Of a DNA stretch of 33,774 bases, positions 8,355 through 13,529 are shown in pieces. Each line of letters begins with the position of its first letter. Position 1 is the first letter of the stretch. Under the pieces are notes generated by a model. That model made no database searches. It worked only from the letters and a program-made list of their open reading frames with translations, and had not been told where the DNA came from. Origin of the DNA: a virus; IMG/VR virus record IMGVR_UViG_3300008117_000167, positions 1 to 33,774 of that record; one strand, 5' to 3'. A program made the translations under genes and the position numbers.

Positions 8355-8558
8355 TAATACATAAAATTAAACATATTATTGAATTATATTTAATTGTTTT
8401 TAACATTTCTTAATATCTTATATTAATATATCTTTTATTTTATATATTTTCTAAATTTTATATTATTTATAAAAATACTTTAATAAATATTTGGATATAT
8501 CATTACTTTAATATTATATTTGTAAAACAATTAACAATAACAATAAAAACAAAACAAC
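8355..8558. promoter_or_regulatory. Divergent AT-rich control region
   Basis: About 200 bases of extremely AT-rich DNA separate the minus-strand packaging operon from the plus-strand operon. The plus-strand promoter at 8490-8522 is clear. For the minus strand I find only a weak box, TATGTTTA (plus 8368-8375), one base off TAnnTTTG and without a TTTG at the right spacing. The late genes may therefore need a phage activator. No ORF is visible here. Confidence 0.55.
8490..8522 (+). promoter_or_regulatory. Bacteroidota-type promoter for the plus-strand operon
   Basis: TTTG at 8490-8493 and TATATTTG at 8515-8522 are separated by 21 bases, matching TTTG-N19-21-TAnnTTTG used by the primary sigma factor of Bacteroidota. 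Transcription should start a few bases after 8522, about 30 bases before the first ATG at 8559. Confidence 0.75.
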
Positions 8559-8648
8559 ATGAAAACTTTCACCATTGCTTCAATCATTTATGTATCACTT
8601 GCAGTTATTATGATCCCAGTAAGTTTATTTCTTTTATCAATTAATTAA
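8559..8648 (+). CDS. 29-residue single-span membrane peptide
   Basis: MKTFTIASIIYVSLAVIMIP begins a peptide that is almost entirely one hydrophobic helix and ends at TAA 8646-8648. It is the first ORF after the promoter and is preceded by a long A/C-rich leader (8529-8558) like those before the other plus-strand genes. Function is unknown; candidates are a small holin-like, superinfection-exclusion or host-takeover peptide. Confidence 0.5.
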   Translation: MKTFTIASIIYVSLAVIMIPVSLFLLSIN

Positions 8649-8669
8649 TCACACTAAAAACCAAACACA

Positions 8670-8942
8670 ATGAAAATAAATAACATGACAAGCCGCAACG
8701 GTAACAAAGTAGCAAACCAATTTATAGTGCATACCCCTGAAGCTACATTTTTTCAGTCTTACAATTCAATCATTGTCAAAACAACTTTTGAAGATGGGCA
8801 AAGGGTTGTATACCTTGATGAATATTTTTGGAATTATTCAAGAACTACCTCAAAGTATAGATCTTTATTTTTAGGTGAAAATACCCAGGAAACAAAAGAC
8901 AATATAAAAAGCGGCAAATATAAATTAACCAATTTAAATTAA
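8670..8942 (+). CDS. Conserved phage protein of unknown function (DUF8033-like)
   Basis: The 90-residue soluble protein contains NMTSRNGNKVANQFIVHTP, FFQSYNSIIVK, a YLDEYFWNYSRTTSKYR block and a closing ETKDNIKSGKYKLTNLN. I recall this pattern from many small phage and plasmid proteins filed as DUF8033; that assignment is from memory and unverified. Its role is unknown. It follows an A/C-only leader (CACTAAAAACCAAACACA) and is the second gene of the probably early plus-strand operon. Confidence 0.75.
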   Translation: MKINNMTSRNGNKVANQFIVHTPEATFFQSYNSIIVKTTFEDGQRVVYLDEYFWNYSRTTSKYRSLFLGENTQETKDNIKSGKYKLTNLN

Positions 8943-8946
8943 TACC

Positions 8947-9090
8947 ATGAAATATATTAACAAGCATTTTAATACATTAAAGGAAGCGGAAAGGTATTTG
9001 AATAAACTTTACAATAAGTATCACCATGTGATCGTAATTAAATACCCACTATTTTCAGAAAACGGCATTTATATCTTTGAAATAAATTAA
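8947..9090 (+). CDS. 47-residue small protein, unknown
   Basis: ATG at 8947 lies 4 bases after the previous stop, and the frame ends at TAA 9088-9090. The protein starts MKYINKHFNTLKEAERYLNK, a helix-like segment, followed by a beta-like stretch HHVIVIKYPLFSENGIYIFE. This resembles small standalone phage modulators, but I recognise no family. Its tight spacing supports translation. Confidence 0.6.
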   Translation: MKYINKHFNTLKEAERYLNKLYNKYHHVIVIKYPLFSENGIYIFEIN

Positions 9091-9111
9091 AAACAATTAA
9101 AACCCAAACAC

Positions 9112-9675
9112 ATGAAAAAGTTACATTTAGCAGTATCAAAAGACAATCTAAGGCCGCAACTACAAAACATTCAAGTTAAAGATGGCCATGTATTTGCAAC
9201 AAATTGTCATATTTTAGTAAAGTTCCCAATTAACGAAGTTTTCGGCGAAAATTCACCAATAACAAAAGACGATCATTTTTATATTAATGGCAAAGAATGG
9301 GGCAAATTTAAGTTTTATAATGCCATGTATTTCACCTTTGAAAATGATATACTTTGCGCAAAAGATAAGAAAGGTAACAATTTAGGCATGATAAAAGTAA
9401 TTAAAGAAAATGAACTAAGTAGGCCATTTTATGACTGCAATGTGGTAATACCTAATGAAACAAAAGAAACGGTACAACTTTGTCAAATTTCATTTAATCA
9501 TGAACTTTACTACAATTTAATAGAAGTATTTAATTTTGATACCCCTTTGTTTAATATGAATTTTTACGGACAAACTTCCACAATTTTAGTAAAGTCAAAC
9601 ATTGAAACAGATACAAGGGGCCTGGGGGTTATTATGCCAATTCAAATAAATTTTAAAGAAGATGAAAAAAATTAA
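9112..9675 (+). CDS. Sliding-clamp-like protein (DNA polymerase III beta-related)
   Basis: The 187-residue protein has the clamp-domain pattern in which a short LRPQLQNIQVKDGHVFATNC is followed by HILVKFP. In bacterial beta clamps the matching segment is the R-P-x-L-x-x-I-x-V-x-x-G-x-x-x-A-T-x-x-H-x-L strand-helix-strand. The end, RGLGVIMPIQI, resembles the final strands with the conserved M-P before the clamp C terminus. At half the length of bacterial DnaN it would have to form a higher-order ring or be a partial clamp. No polymerase is encoded, so it may recruit or compete for the host polymerase. An A/C-rich leader precedes it. Confidence 0.6.
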   Translation: MKKLHLAVSKDNLRPQLQNIQVKDGHVFATNCHILVKFPINEVFGENSPITKDDHFYINGKEWGKFKFYNAMYFTFENDILCAKDKKGNNLGMIKVIKENELSRPFYDCNVVIPNETKETVQLCQISFNHELYYNLIEVFNFDTPLFNMNFYGQTSTILVKSNIETDTRGLGVIMPIQINFKEDEKN

Positions 9676-9757
9676 ACTTTACCATTTACTTATTTGGCTA
9701 TTTATAGCCGCTTTGATCCTGGGCAAATTACAGGCTAATGATCCAGCTTTTTATTAA
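9662..9757 (+). CDS. 31-residue membrane or secreted peptide
   Basis: The ORF overlaps the clamp-like gene by 14 bases. It encodes MKKIKLYHLLIWLFIAALIL and a short polar tail, with stop at 9755-9757. The basic N terminus plus one hydrophobic helix fits a single-span inner-membrane peptide or an uncleaved signal. Function is unknown. The overlap suggests coupled translation. Confidence 0.5.
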   Translation: MKKIKLYHLLIWLFIAALILGKLQANDPAFY

Positions 9758-9776
9758 TCACATAAAACAAAAAAAC

Positions 9777-9977
9777 ATGAATACCGTTAAATTCAACCAT
9801 TTACTTATTGAACAGTCAAGCGAAAATAGTTATTACATAACATTAGGTGACTGGGTTATTTATATTGATGCATCAATTGACGGCGAAAAAATTGTTTCCC
9901 ATTGGATAGATAGCGGCGAAAATAGCCCTTATTCTGAAGTTGATAAAACATATAGATACTCAGTTATTGAATACTAA
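9777..9977 (+). CDS. 66-residue small protein, unknown
   Basis: I choose ATG 9777 (MNTVKFNHLLIEQSSENSYY) over an ATG 39 bases upstream, because the sequence before 9777 (CACATAAAACAAAAAAAC) is the A/C-rich leader typical of this operon, while the upstream start would overlap the previous peptide. The protein is acidic, probably all-beta (YYITLGDWVIYIDASIDGEK), and unrecognised. It is the last gene before the terminator at 10008-10043. Confidence 0.65.
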   Translation: MNTVKFNHLLIEQSSENSYYITLGDWVIYIDASIDGEKIVSHWIDSGENSPYSEVDKTYRYSVIEY

Positions 9978-10007
9978 ACAGCTAAACTGATGAGCCTTGA
10001 ATTAGGC

Positions 10008-10043
10008 GAAAAATACCCAGCCTTAAAACTGGGTATTTTTTTA
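10008..10043 (+). terminator. Strong intrinsic terminator, probably bidirectional
   Basis: A perfect 10-bp stem AAATACCCAG / CTGGGTATTT (10011-10020 and 10029-10038) with an 8-base loop is followed by a T-tract. On the minus strand the same hairpin is followed by a shorter T-run, so it may also end the replication operon coming from 10210. Confidence 0.9.
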
Positions 10044-10059
10044 GCATAAATATACAATT

Positions 10060-10227
10060 ATGAAAATAGACATTAACACAATGCAATACTTACTGAATTA
10101 CATAGAGTTAAACTATGATCGGTTAGAACATTTTTACAATAACCTACCCGAAAAAGACAAAAAAATGTCTTTTATTATCTTTATTATTGCTCAATTCACA
10201 AAAGATCATCTAAAAAATATTGAATGA
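10060..10227 (+). CDS. Possible 55-residue protein, unknown
   Basis: The ORF MKIDINTMQYLLNYIELNYD ends at TGA 10225-10227 and overlaps the convergent DnaA-like gene by 18 bases. The helical, charged sequence (LPEKDKKMSFIIFIIAQFTK) looks protein-like. It lies after the strong terminator, so expression would need read-through or an unseen promoter. Moderate to low confidence. Confidence 0.4.
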   Translation: MKIDINTMQYLLNYIELNYDRLEHFYNNLPEKDKKMSFIIFIIAQFTKDHLKNIE

Positions 10228-10617
10228 TACGTTGTATTTCTTAATTAGAAGCGTTTTAAGGCTGTCTAAGTCTGTTCCAATAGGTACATACATTTGAAGC
10301 AATAAACGGCCGTTAAAATGCCCCATTTTAACTAATTCGGCATTTATTTTGGCAATTAAGTCAGTTATGATGGGATCATTTATAGAAACCATGGTTTCTA
10401 TTGATGTAATGCTGTGCATTATGCTTGTGTGATGCTGTTTAAATAGTTCGCCAATTTGAACAAAAGTGTACCCATAATAAGATCGTAAAAAATATTGAAC
10501 AATTTGTCTGGGATATAAAACTTTTCTGGATCGGTTACGCTTAGTTAGTGCGGCCATATCGTAACCCGTAACATTAAAAACAGCTTGACAAAGATTAACA
10601 AAATTAGCATCTTGCAT
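10210..10617 (-). CDS. Stand-alone DnaA domain IV-like DNA-binding protein
   Basis: Residues about 16-95 of this 135-residue protein follow the DnaA C-terminal domain. TKRNRSRKVLYPRQIVQYFL matches the basic-loop and helix segment of DnaA ([20 protein letters not shown] in E. coli), and ELFKQHHTSIMHSITSIE matches its GGRDHTTVLHACRKIE helix-turn-helix; the DHT signature is HHT here. There is no AAA+ ATPase domain. The last 40 residues are unassigned. It should bind DnaA-box-like sites. The gene is next to the iteron-rich gap that I propose as the origin, and a 14-bp palindrome lies upstream of its start. It could initiate replication, repress its own promoter or displace host DnaA. Confidence 0.8.
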   Translation of the reverse strand: MQDANFVNLCQAVFNVTGYDMAALTKRNRSRKVLYPRQIVQYFLRSYYGYTFVQIGELFKQHHTSIMHSITSIETMVSINDPIITDLIAKINAELVKMGHFNGRLLLQMYVPIGTDLDSLKTLLIKKYNVSFNIF

Positions 10618-10826: not shown

Positions 10827-11131
10827 GGTACACGATTACACGATTTTACGCCCTTTCTATATTCCCCTATATATATTTTTTTTTCGTTTTTTTTTACAGA
10901 CCCCTTCCAGAATAGAGAAAAATCGCGAAATCGCGTCTCCGCGTTGATTATCAACACTTTAATCGCGTACCAATCGTGTACCAATCGCGTTCCCAAGCCT
11001 AAAATCGCGTTACCAAAAACCCTAAAACTGCACCTCATTTTCCTCTATTAAGTTAAATTTATAAACTTTTTTACCACCAGATGCCTTTTCTCGCTTAAAA
11101 AGGTACGCGATTTTTAAAAGGGTACACGATT
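10827..11131. repeat. AATCGYGTACC iterons in both orientations
   Basis: Plus-oriented copies of AATCGCGT/AATCGTGT start at 10929, 10961, 10972, 10983 and 11003, with a related AATCGCGA at 10921. Those at 10961, 10972 and 10983 are exactly 11 bp apart, one helical turn. Inverted copies (GGTACRCGATT or ACACGATT) lie at 10827-10837, 10838-10845, 11102-11112 and 11121-11131, the last two inside the end of the primase gene. The array flanks a T-rich tract at 10866-10897. Confidence 0.85.
10948..10956 (+). promoter_or_regulatory. DnaA-box-like site
   Basis: TTATCAACA differs by one base from the bacterial DnaA box TTATCCACA and sits inside the iteron array. It may bind host DnaA or the phage DnaA-like protein. 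Confidence 0.5.
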
Positions 11132-13529
11132 CTTCAATTGCCTTGGTGAACCTTTTTACCGAATAATCCTTCTTTTCAAAACCTGCCATATTTAAGAAAT
11201 CGTTATAAAGTTGTTCTAACTTTATCCAATTTCCATCCTTCTCAAGTACACCCTCAATAAAGTCCAAAAATTCATCACCAAACTGCACCTTGATCTGCTT
11301 TTTGACCAGTTTATCAGAATTTGTCATATTCTGCACCCCAAACTGCAAATAACCTTGTACGCAGTTAAACATCAAATTATAAAACCGATTCCATTCTTGA
11401 ACATCCCAATCGTCAAATAGCTTATGCCCAAAAAAGTCCTCTGGTGTGTAGGTATTTGAAAATGTCGGAGCAAATTCCATCACCTTTTGTCTTCTCTTTG
11501 CATGGTTGCCCGAATTTGGGATGGTGTAATTTGTCGTAAATATAACCTTTGGTGAATCCTTATAAGGTATAAATAATTCATCCTTATTTTTCTTTTCAAC
11601 AGTAACTCCTTCGGTTATTATGCTATAAAAACCCTCAAAATCTACATTTTTTCTCGTGTCCTCAATAGCTAAAATCTTTGTATCAAGGTCAACCCTCTGA
11701 AACGCAAAGTTCTTGTCAACTTTAAAGTTCTTGCCATCTACTCGAACAGTATTTAAAATATAACTAAGTGCCTTTACAAAAATCCCCTTACCAGTTCCAC
11801 CACCTTTCGCCTCATTATCGGTTTCCTCGGCAAGAATAACCGCAAATGGTCTTGCAGGGTCTTTATACTTATGTAAAAGGTAACCAATTAGGCTTAGTGC
11901 GTACATTATCCTTTCTTGATCGCCTCCGCTAATCTTCTCAATGAACTTATAATATTCAATTTGTGATGGCTCTGTGCCCGTCTGATCAATGTGAATTTCA
12001 TGGTTGATGACTTGCGACTTCCAAATGCATTTTTTTAGTTCGCCATAAGACTTCAGTTCAATGTCATCTTTGGTTATCACAACCACCCCATTTTTAAATG
12101 GGAAATAGCTTACATCTTTGGTGTCTTTTAGAAAATCGACATCTGCCCTATCAAAAAACTCAAAGAAAGCATCGCTAAAAAGCAGTGATGCACCCTTATA
12201 CATCAATTCAAGCAAATCTTGTGGCGAAACCTCACCATCAAAGGTGTCGGGTAGCCTATCCACATAATCCTTTATAAACCGCTTTATTTGCTCAGTACTC
12301 GCCTCCTCCACAAAACCATCCTTTACCCTTATAAGCCTATAAATCGTTGAATTAGGGTCGTAGAAATAAAGCCTAAAGCCACCTTGCTTGGTTAGGAATA
12401 TTTGCAGCTTATAACGATTTATACTTGGTTGACCTGTTTTCTCGTTTATATCCCAAAACTCAAGTATCTGCTCACCCCATCTGTCATTTAGGTCTTTTAT
12501 GATGCCTTCGGCTTCCGTAAGTTCTTTATCATACTTTTTAATAAGTAGAGACTTAAGTTCATCGTTTGTTGCTCCATTCTGCTTTTTGTTAAAAAGCGTC
12601 TTTTCCAATTTCCCTCCGTATGATGTTTTTTTTTCACCAAAACCCATTTCGACCAATTTCTTTGCTCCCGCCTTAAAATCCCCTCCACATTCAAGTATGC
12701 AAAACACTGCCGAAGGCTTATAGCCTTTCTCAACTATAAAAGGTGTATTCGTACTAAAAACACTAAATAACCCCAAACTCTTATTATATGATCCACTATG
12801 CTTGGCTTCACTCCCAGGTCGTAAAAAATATATCCTTTCCGTATTTTCACCAACCACTTTCCATCCAAAGTTGCCTAATAAGGTAACAATGTCCCCTCTT
12901 TTATTATAATCATCAAAAGGGGATATGCCATACTCTTTCACAGAAGGTCGATCATGTGCTTCAATTATCACTTCTTCAATCACTTCGTTAAAACTTCTCA
13001 TTATACTGAGTAAACTATCCCTTTCATCTAAGGTAATAATATTAATACCTTCTTTAACAAAGCTATAACCTTCTGTTGGGGGAGCAACAACATATCCAGC
13101 TTCTCCCCTCGTTTCTATTATGCAGTATGTTTTAATGTTGGGATTTCTCAATAATTCCTCAGCCGTTGCATTACGCAAAGCAAGCTTTTTATTCCCTTCA
13201 ATATATTCGCATCTATAATATATATGATAGCCGTTGTTCTTTGTACGAACAATATGTAGCTTATCATATAATTCTTTTGGAATCTTAGTCGCAATTTGCG
13301 ACCACAAGTCATAAGTCTGATATTTTGTATCAACATCTATCACTTCCAAATTACCGCTAACAGCACCGCATATTACTGCAATACCTTTCGCCTTATGGTC
13401 AGCCATTTGCCTTTCAACTTCTTCAATCGTTATTTCCTTTGTCTGATAAATCTTCCAAGGAAATATGGCTTGTTTCTGTTCGTTTACAGCAATAATATTA
13501 ATACCTTGTTCAATATAATTTTCAATCAT
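11022..13529 (-). CDS. Primase-helicase (PrimPol domain plus SF3/D5-type helicase)
   Basis: The 835-residue protein should prime and unwind phage DNA. The N-terminal PrimPol domain shows the catalytic LEVIDVD (D65 and D67) and NNGYHIYYRC (H102), plus GEAGYVVAPPT near 142. A middle region (200-300, SGSYNKSLGLFSVF) and a linker lead to the SF3-type ATPase: Walker A GGGTGKG near 576-582, Walker B-like ILAIEDTRKN near 620, and sensor VIFTTNYTIPNSG near 670. A C-terminal winged-helix-like part follows (VLEKDGNWIKLEQLYNDFL). It ends at the proposed origin, and its last 100 bases contain two inverted iterons. Length is normal for fused phage primase-helicases. Confidence 0.9.
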   Translation of the reverse strand: MIENYIEQGINIIAVNEQKQAIFPWKIYQTKEITIEEVERQMADHKAKGIAVICGAVSGNLEVIDVDTKYQTYDLWSQIATKIPKELYDKLHIVRTKNNGYHIYYRCEYIEGNKKLALRNATAEELLRNPNIKTYCIIETRGEAGYVVAPPTEGYSFVKEGINIITLDERDSLLSIMRSFNEVIEEVIIEAHDRPSVKEYGISPFDDYNKRGDIVTLLGNFGWKVVGENTERIYFLRPGSEAKHSGSYNKSLGLFSVFSTNTPFIVEKGYKPSAVFCILECGGDFKAGAKKLVEMGFGEKKTSYGGKLEKTLFNKKQNGATNDELKSLLIKKYDKELTEAEGIIKDLNDRWGEQILEFWDINEKTGQPSINRYKLQIFLTKQGGFRLYFYDPNSTIYRLIRVKDGFVEEASTEQIKRFIKDYVDRLPDTFDGEVSPQDLLELMYKGASLLFSDAFFEFFDRADVDFLKDTKDVSYFPFKNGVVVITKDDIELKSYGELKKCIWKSQVINHEIHIDQTGTEPSQIEYYKFIEKISGGDQERIMYALSLIGYLLHKYKDPARPFAVILAEETDNEAKGGGTGKGIFVKALSYILNTVRVDGKNFKVDKNFAFQRVDLDTKILAIEDTRKNVDFEGFYSIITEGVTVEKKNKDELFIPYKDSPKVIFTTNYTIPNSGNHAKRRQKVMEFAPTFSNTYTPEDFFGHKLFDDWDVQEWNRFYNLMFNCVQGYLQFGVQNMTNSDKLVKKQIKVQFGDEFLDFIEGVLEKDGNWIKLEQLYNDFLNMAGFEKKDYSVKRFTKAIEESCTLLKIAYLFKREKASGGKKVYKFNLIEENEVQF

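Follow-up and report, generated by a model that had tools for sequence, protein, structure and literature searches.

The plus-strand cassette and its variability

The stretch of DNA analysed here, a window of 33,774 nt from a virus of bacteria, contains an intact ORF at positions 9112-9675 on the plus strand, which encodes a 187-aa protein that we describe as a half-size sliding-clamp homologue based on profile searches, an AlphaFold model and fold searches. The gene is opposite in strand to its neighbours and is located between the small-terminase side of the genome and a DnaA-HTH gene (Pfam E 1.6e-13). At the head of its cassette, a motif scan identified the promoter TTTG-N21-TATATTTG (8490-8522, +), a motif that we take to be of the Bacteroidota type. 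The first ORF of the cassette codes for a small hydrophobic protein of 29 aa (8559-8648, +) and is followed by a 90-aa ORF that matches phrog_21575, a family of unknown function (8670-8942, +), and that is also found alongside the clamp gene in the related loci L054, L069, L071 and L079. A small ORF of 47 aa (8947-9090, +) lies immediately upstream of the clamp gene and another of 31 aa (9662-9757, +) overlaps its end; these two and the first ORF are called from sequence only. The last ORF codes for 66 aa (9777-9977, +), with a similar ORF in loci L018 and L084, and the unit is closed by an intrinsic-terminator-like hairpin with a U tract (10005-10046, +; -17.4 kcal/mol, z -4.3), which was missed by a consensus scan. 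Two 40-nt stretches at the starts of two small cassette ORFs (9655-9694 and 9770-9809) are 78% alike.

The window protein had no close relative in a phage collection (eight weak matches, best E 0.01), and related-locus searches with the window protein, with a three-row alignment or with the half-clamp of Vibrio phage pYD38-A alone returned no relatives; likewise, genome-contig profile searches with the window clamp family and with the terminase gave no relative, and phrog_3007 as the family query missed the window protein. The subfamily was reached via synteny: out of 240 relatives of the terminase, the best were used to retrieve 80 surrounding loci, seven of which carry the clamp gene according to a profile search. 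A subsequent profile scan yielded 11 loci, and there were 18 ORF matches in total among 91 loci, several of which are the same contig seen twice. The ten aligned subfamily sequences share 36-48% identity with the window protein, the ORF is intact in all ten, and residues R14, W63, N129, M175 and P176 are invariant.

The content of this locus differs strongly between related phages. In the 48 related loci for which both flanks are present, the interval is shorter than 300 bp in 17, 300-1000 bp long in three and a cassette of more than 1 kb in 28, and the clamp is carried by six; when reduced to 35 distinct loci, the corresponding numbers are 9, 2 and 24, with a clamp in four. Locus L039 also has a clamp, in a contig without one flank. 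Other cassettes code for GP88 (Pfam E 2.5e-34) and unrelated ORFs. The opposite-strand cassette (8355-10220 in the window; loci L005-L084) is hypervariable, with GP88-like, DUF7249-like and unknown genes swapped between related phages, and ten listed ORFs in the same slot (in L049, L053, L062, L083 and others) belong to one family of uncharacterised proteins of 177-337 aa. The motif TTG-N18-23-TANNTTTG falls within the opening 150 nt in 20 of 24 distinct related cassettes (0.38 expected), and is found on the opposite strand in 0 of 24 and in 0 of 246 other 150-nt stretches. Within the window by itself, the promoter motif is not above chance (5 versus 2.98 expected), and a sigma-70 scan was uninformative. 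The original prediction assigned the gene to a separate plus-strand unit, which is borne out by its position, the promoter and the terminator. Because the locus content is variable, the promoter is conserved and a hairpin closes the unit, we conclude that the clamp gene is an accessory gene with its own plus-strand transcription unit, from which it is presumably expressed.

A cut-down relative of DnaN

A clamp-like pattern had been noticed in the 187 residues, half the size of DnaN: RPQLQNIQVKDGHVFATNC at residues 14-32 and VIMPI at residues 173-177. The pattern is real and goes beyond chance, as judged by profile matches to beta clamps. A profile of ten relatives retrieved nine PDB sequences at E<=10, every one a bacterial beta clamp (best 7evp_A, E 0.0021), with the match falling on the second unit of domain III, and with a 38-row profile, all 42 PDB sequences at E<=0.001 were beta clamps (best 2.9e-22). 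Within PHROGs, the window protein matches phrog_3007 over residues 7-179 (E 7.7e-7), followed by phrog_6615 (1.6e-4) and phrog_947, a DNA polymerase processivity factor (1.1e-3). The ten-row subfamily aligns over its full length with 13 half-size clamps of the phrog_3007 type (HHalign probability 97.3, E 1.6e-11), and its alignment with a single full-length DnaN gave a C-terminal match only (probability 2.4). Pfam returned nothing for the window protein except a sub-threshold zinc-finger match, and NCBIfam returned no match. Matches to viral glycoproteins in the PDB had E-values of 0.4 and worse and were taken as chance.

An earlier AlphaFold model built from ten sequences alone reached a pLDDT of 59, and its leading fold matches were weak and to clamps only. 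Our conclusions on the fold rest instead on a model from the 38-row alignment with diverse IMG/VR half-clamps (pLDDT 89.3, pTM 0.84), which, because other half-clamps went into it, does not provide evidence independent of the sequences. A Foldseek search of the PDB with this model gave 124 matches at E<=0.001 (best 1.4e-6), and all 50 listed are bacterial clamps. Bacterial beta clamps also make up all 50 entries listed by VIA-align, with Z-scores from 13.1 down to 10.8; the best entry is S. aureus DnaN (7evp_A; Z 13.1, 163 aligned residues, 3.0 A), and the alignment with the E. coli clamp 6fvl_D spans residues 137-366 (162 aligned, Z 12.3). The two-domain clamps of the T4 gp45 and PCNA type are absent among these 50 matches, a listing that cannot exclude a family. 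In the viral-model library BFVD, many of the best fold matches are phage proteins of 163-215 aa, several of which are named DNA polymerase III beta subunit. The comparison with DnaN that the original prediction called for could have yielded an unrelated fold; this did not occur and the monomer model is clamp-like. Three repeated units are visible in the AlphaFold model, and the repeated beta-alpha-beta-beta-beta units of the clamp fold are recognised in the window protein by AlphaFold, Foldseek and VIA-align.

With 187 residues, the protein lacks the three complete domains of DnaN, which has a length of about 366 aa. HHalign of the 13 phrog_3007-type proteins with Salmonella DnaN (366 aa; probability 99.3, E 3e-20) pairs them with DnaN residue 136 to about 250 and then with residues 316-366. 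Because this alignment starts at residue 136 and skips about 65 residues, the layout, as judged from alignments and the model, combines DnaN domain II with the second half of domain III and lacks both domain I and the first domain-III unit. In an alternative alignment of the wider half-clamp group, the third unit is paired with the first domain-III unit, and some dimer interface may thus persist in that group; for the window subfamily, the alignments shown pair the last unit with the second domain-III unit. The window protein resembles DnaN (E. coli 2pol, S. aureus 7evp, Elizabethkingia 8dt6) in its domain II/III fold, the order of the units and the pocket segments, but is without domain I, one domain-III unit and the canonical dimer interface. 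On the strength of sequence and predicted structure, we regard it as a genuine but shortened relative of the DNA sliding clamp of bacteria, with a DnaN-like fold.

Eighteen residues of the clamp's peptide-binding pocket are listed in PMC11139829, which also names conserved dimer-interface residues (I78, R103, F106, I272, L273, E298 and E304). All 18 pocket positions fall inside the kept DnaN segments, as opposed to none of the seven interface residues. By alignment mapping, pocket subsite I (residues 14-17, RPQL; 9151-9162, +) is the counterpart of DnaN R152-L155, the pocket residues 30-35 (TNCHIL; 9199-9216, +) of T172-L177, residues 107-112 at the pocket and the domain II/III junction (YDCNVV; 9430-9447, +) of P242-V247, residues 129-132 (9496-9507, +), with the invariant N129, of N320-Y323, and the pocket residues 173-178 (VIMPIQ; 9628-9645, +), with the invariant M175 and P176, of V360-R365. 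In the window protein, ten of the 18 pocket residues are the same as in DnaN and eight differ, including those at R176, R246 and R365. Across the 13 phrog_3007-type half-clamps, pocket identity is 0.666 versus 0.271 elsewhere, which was not equalled in any of 20,000 permutations. For the window subfamily, pocket conservation is 0.479 versus 0.430 elsewhere, which is not significant (p 0.27; seven of ten rows after removal of near-duplicates), and this null result is the main weakness of a pocket-based reading for the window protein. A clamp fold, moreover, does not by itself establish what a protein does. Regarding the head-to-tail dimer interface (I78, F106, I272, L273), domain I and the I272/L273 region are absent in the subfamily alignment. 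A ring-compatible interface, the lack of which the original prediction would have taken as a refutation, is therefore doubtful: the protein has no domain I, which provides one interface face, and no I272/L273 face can be made out in the window subfamily. Basic residues close to the second predicted helix might touch DNA in the way a true ring does; in this region, W63 and K65 are invariant, K64 is near-invariant and K67 is found in six of ten rows.

Half-size clamps in phages and the polymerases of their genomes

Half-size clamps are not confined to this genome but are common in phages. A tblastn search with the half-clamp of Vibrio phage pYD38-A found 299 of 50,697 phage records, and a scan of IMG/VR gave at least 512 half-clamp relatives among 600 stretches, with an ORF length of 170-218 aa in 78 of the 80 stretches kept. 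Known phrog_3007 half-clamps include VPRG_00008 of Vibrio phage pYD38-A, that of Akira and gp07 of Sodalis phage SO-1, among others. They share with the window protein a length of about 180 aa, domain II plus half of domain III and a C-terminal MP motif, in addition to the full-length profile match described above, and several of their genes are also opposite in strand to neighbouring virion genes. The window protein is only 13-23% identical to them, has lost RYYLNG and the arginines R176, R246 and R365, and belongs to a different phage lineage. Based on these comparisons, it adds a new and divergent member to a kind of half-clamp that is widespread, and it belongs to a small subfamily of which ten sequences were aligned. 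The nearest match from a named Bacteroidota phage is WLZ21242.1 of Bacteroides phage C3_41T2LP (182 aa), with 46% identity over residues 3-43, beyond which the two are too divergent for a BLAST alignment; a related-locus search found no close relatives of the C3_41T2LP protein.

PHROG and many RefSeq records name the phrog_3007-type half-clamps RusA-like Holliday junction resolvases (L003:3229-3765 is an example), and several depositors named the same proteins DNA polymerase III beta subunit. The pYD38-A member of phrog_3007 matches DnaN in the PDB with a best E-value of 2.2e-12, and 36 of the 38 listed matches are clamps. No Pfam RusA domain was found in the window protein (E<=10) or in the pYD38-A member (E<=1), and we rejected a resolvase identity; judged from these searches, the RusA label on phrog_3007 is very probably a propagated misannotation. 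In print, half-clamps are listed in gene tables under the name 'DNA polymerase III beta subunit', and the literature searched contained no experimental study of a half-size phage clamp.

The genome had been described as lacking a DNA polymerase, which holds for PF00476, PF07733 and PF00136 in the window but not entirely, as a Prim-Pol protein (PF09250, E 1.3e-14) is encoded at 11022-13529 on the minus strand. This Prim-Pol plus DUF5906 protein is likely a primase-helicase, possibly with polymerase activity. The window also codes for a polymerase-type exonuclease (phrog_403) and for a helicase. A stand-alone DnaA domain-IV-like protein, a possible origin-binding protein that is kept in relatives, is encoded at 10210-10617 (-) and flanks the cassette; elsewhere, glycosyltransferase-like and methyltransferase-like ORFs, recognised by eye (157-1128 and 1125-1634, -), adjoin a major-capsid-like gene. 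Neither the window nor four related contigs contain PF00476, which was found in two of 14 named half-clamp phages, both Dhillonviruses (two of 19 records in total), and in two of 24 further half-clamp contigs. Thus, 39 of 43 half-clamp or related records, a set that includes the clamp-less relatives L033 and L046, are without PolA and all 43 are without PolC (PF07733); PF00136 was found in none of 19 half-clamp or related records. A C3_41T2LP protein annotated as 'DNA directed DNA polymerase' (L002:1592-3688) is a DnaB_C helicase by Pfam and was not counted as evidence for a polymerase. Since half-clamp and related phages mostly carry neither PolA nor PolC, half-clamp phages probably use the polymerase III of the host. 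Burkholderia phage AH2, as described in PMC3483164, codes for a similarly short clamp (gp20, 209 aa, 'DNA polymerase III beta subunit'), which is among the BFVD fold matches, and, unlike the window, also for a DNA polymerase (gp73); the clamp of phage KL1 has 386 aa according to the same source. The combination of a clamp without a polymerase is therefore not a rule.

Possible functions of the half-clamp

Because the kept segments hold the pocket and not the normal ring interface, we tentatively favour, at somewhat less than an even chance, a ringless or non-canonical clamp fragment that is directed at the host and acts via its partner-binding pocket. Such a cut-down clamp would keep the pocket and be unable to form a normal ring, and the pocket might engage the clamp-binding motifs of host replication and repair proteins, for which polymerase III, the clamp loader, mismatch repair, Hda and RecBCD/AddAB-type enzymes are candidates. 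The half-clamp would then compete with the host clamp for these partners or divert them from it. The original prediction is supported in part, and either of the roles it offered, redirection of the host polymerase or a decoy clamp, may apply. It had also proposed a search for clamp-binding motifs in the phage's own replication proteins; a search of the 43 phage genes gave none above chance (no pentamers versus 1.6 expected, and three hexamers versus 2.3 expected, all outside replication genes), so the partners would be host proteins. According to PMC3022782, attempts to clone a monomeric beta with a functional cleft failed and a dominant-negative effect was suggested, which by analogy may lend indirect bench support to a ringless competitor. 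Several observations argue against such a competitor: the pocket of the window subfamily is not significantly conserved and differs from DnaN at eight of 18 positions, the conserved basic residues near the second predicted helix could touch DNA, some interface may persist in the wider group according to the alternative alignment, and outright inhibition would hurt a phage that depends on host polymerase III. With slightly more reserve, we speculate that the protein is a natural ringless clamp reduced to its partner-binding half, which would steer the host's clamp-binding proteins as a soluble competitor or adaptor and, within the phage group of the window, would be a swappable accessory and not a replication subunit.

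The main rival is a new ring, in which three-unit protomers would assemble via new contacts into a processivity clamp that recruits host polymerase III to phage DNA. Known clamp rings contain twelve units, and four protomers of three units each would, for example, also give twelve. The clamp fold, the three repeated units of the model and the conserved basic residues fit such a ring, as does the fact that most half-clamp phages are without their own PolA or PolC and must use the host polymerase. We nevertheless consider it rather unlikely, as domain I is missing, the gene is dispensable in close relatives with the same Prim-Pol, helicase and DnaA-like genes, and no clamp loader of the phage itself was noticed in the scan of window proteins. 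Less probable still is an anti-defence or host-takeover protein whose clamp fold blocks clamp-dependent repair, recombination or DnaA inactivation instead of replication. The location in a hypervariable opposite-strand cassette, typical of accessory genes, the annotation of the Sodalis phage SO-1 relative as 'possible moron gene product' and the binding of RecBCD to the clamp described in PMC13254535 point in this direction; PADLOC, however, gives no match and no known defence or anti-defence neighbour was recognised in the window cassette. A decaying, functionless remnant of a captured full-length dnaN could account for the half size and for relatives without the gene, but is highly improbable and already disfavoured by conservation, as the ORF is intact in all ten aligned members in spite of only 36-48% identity to the window protein, the same locus with its promoter is kept, and the tight size class of 170-218 aa in 78 of 80 distant ORFs argues against decay.

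If the ringless fragment that we favour is correct, half-clamps would be ready-made competitors for the bacterial clamp pocket, which is treated as a drug target in PMC11139829, and would show which part of a clamp is useful without a ring. Half-size clamps are present in hundreds of phages, and the dispensable, promoter-headed cassette provides a natural comparison between phages of the window group with and without the clamp.
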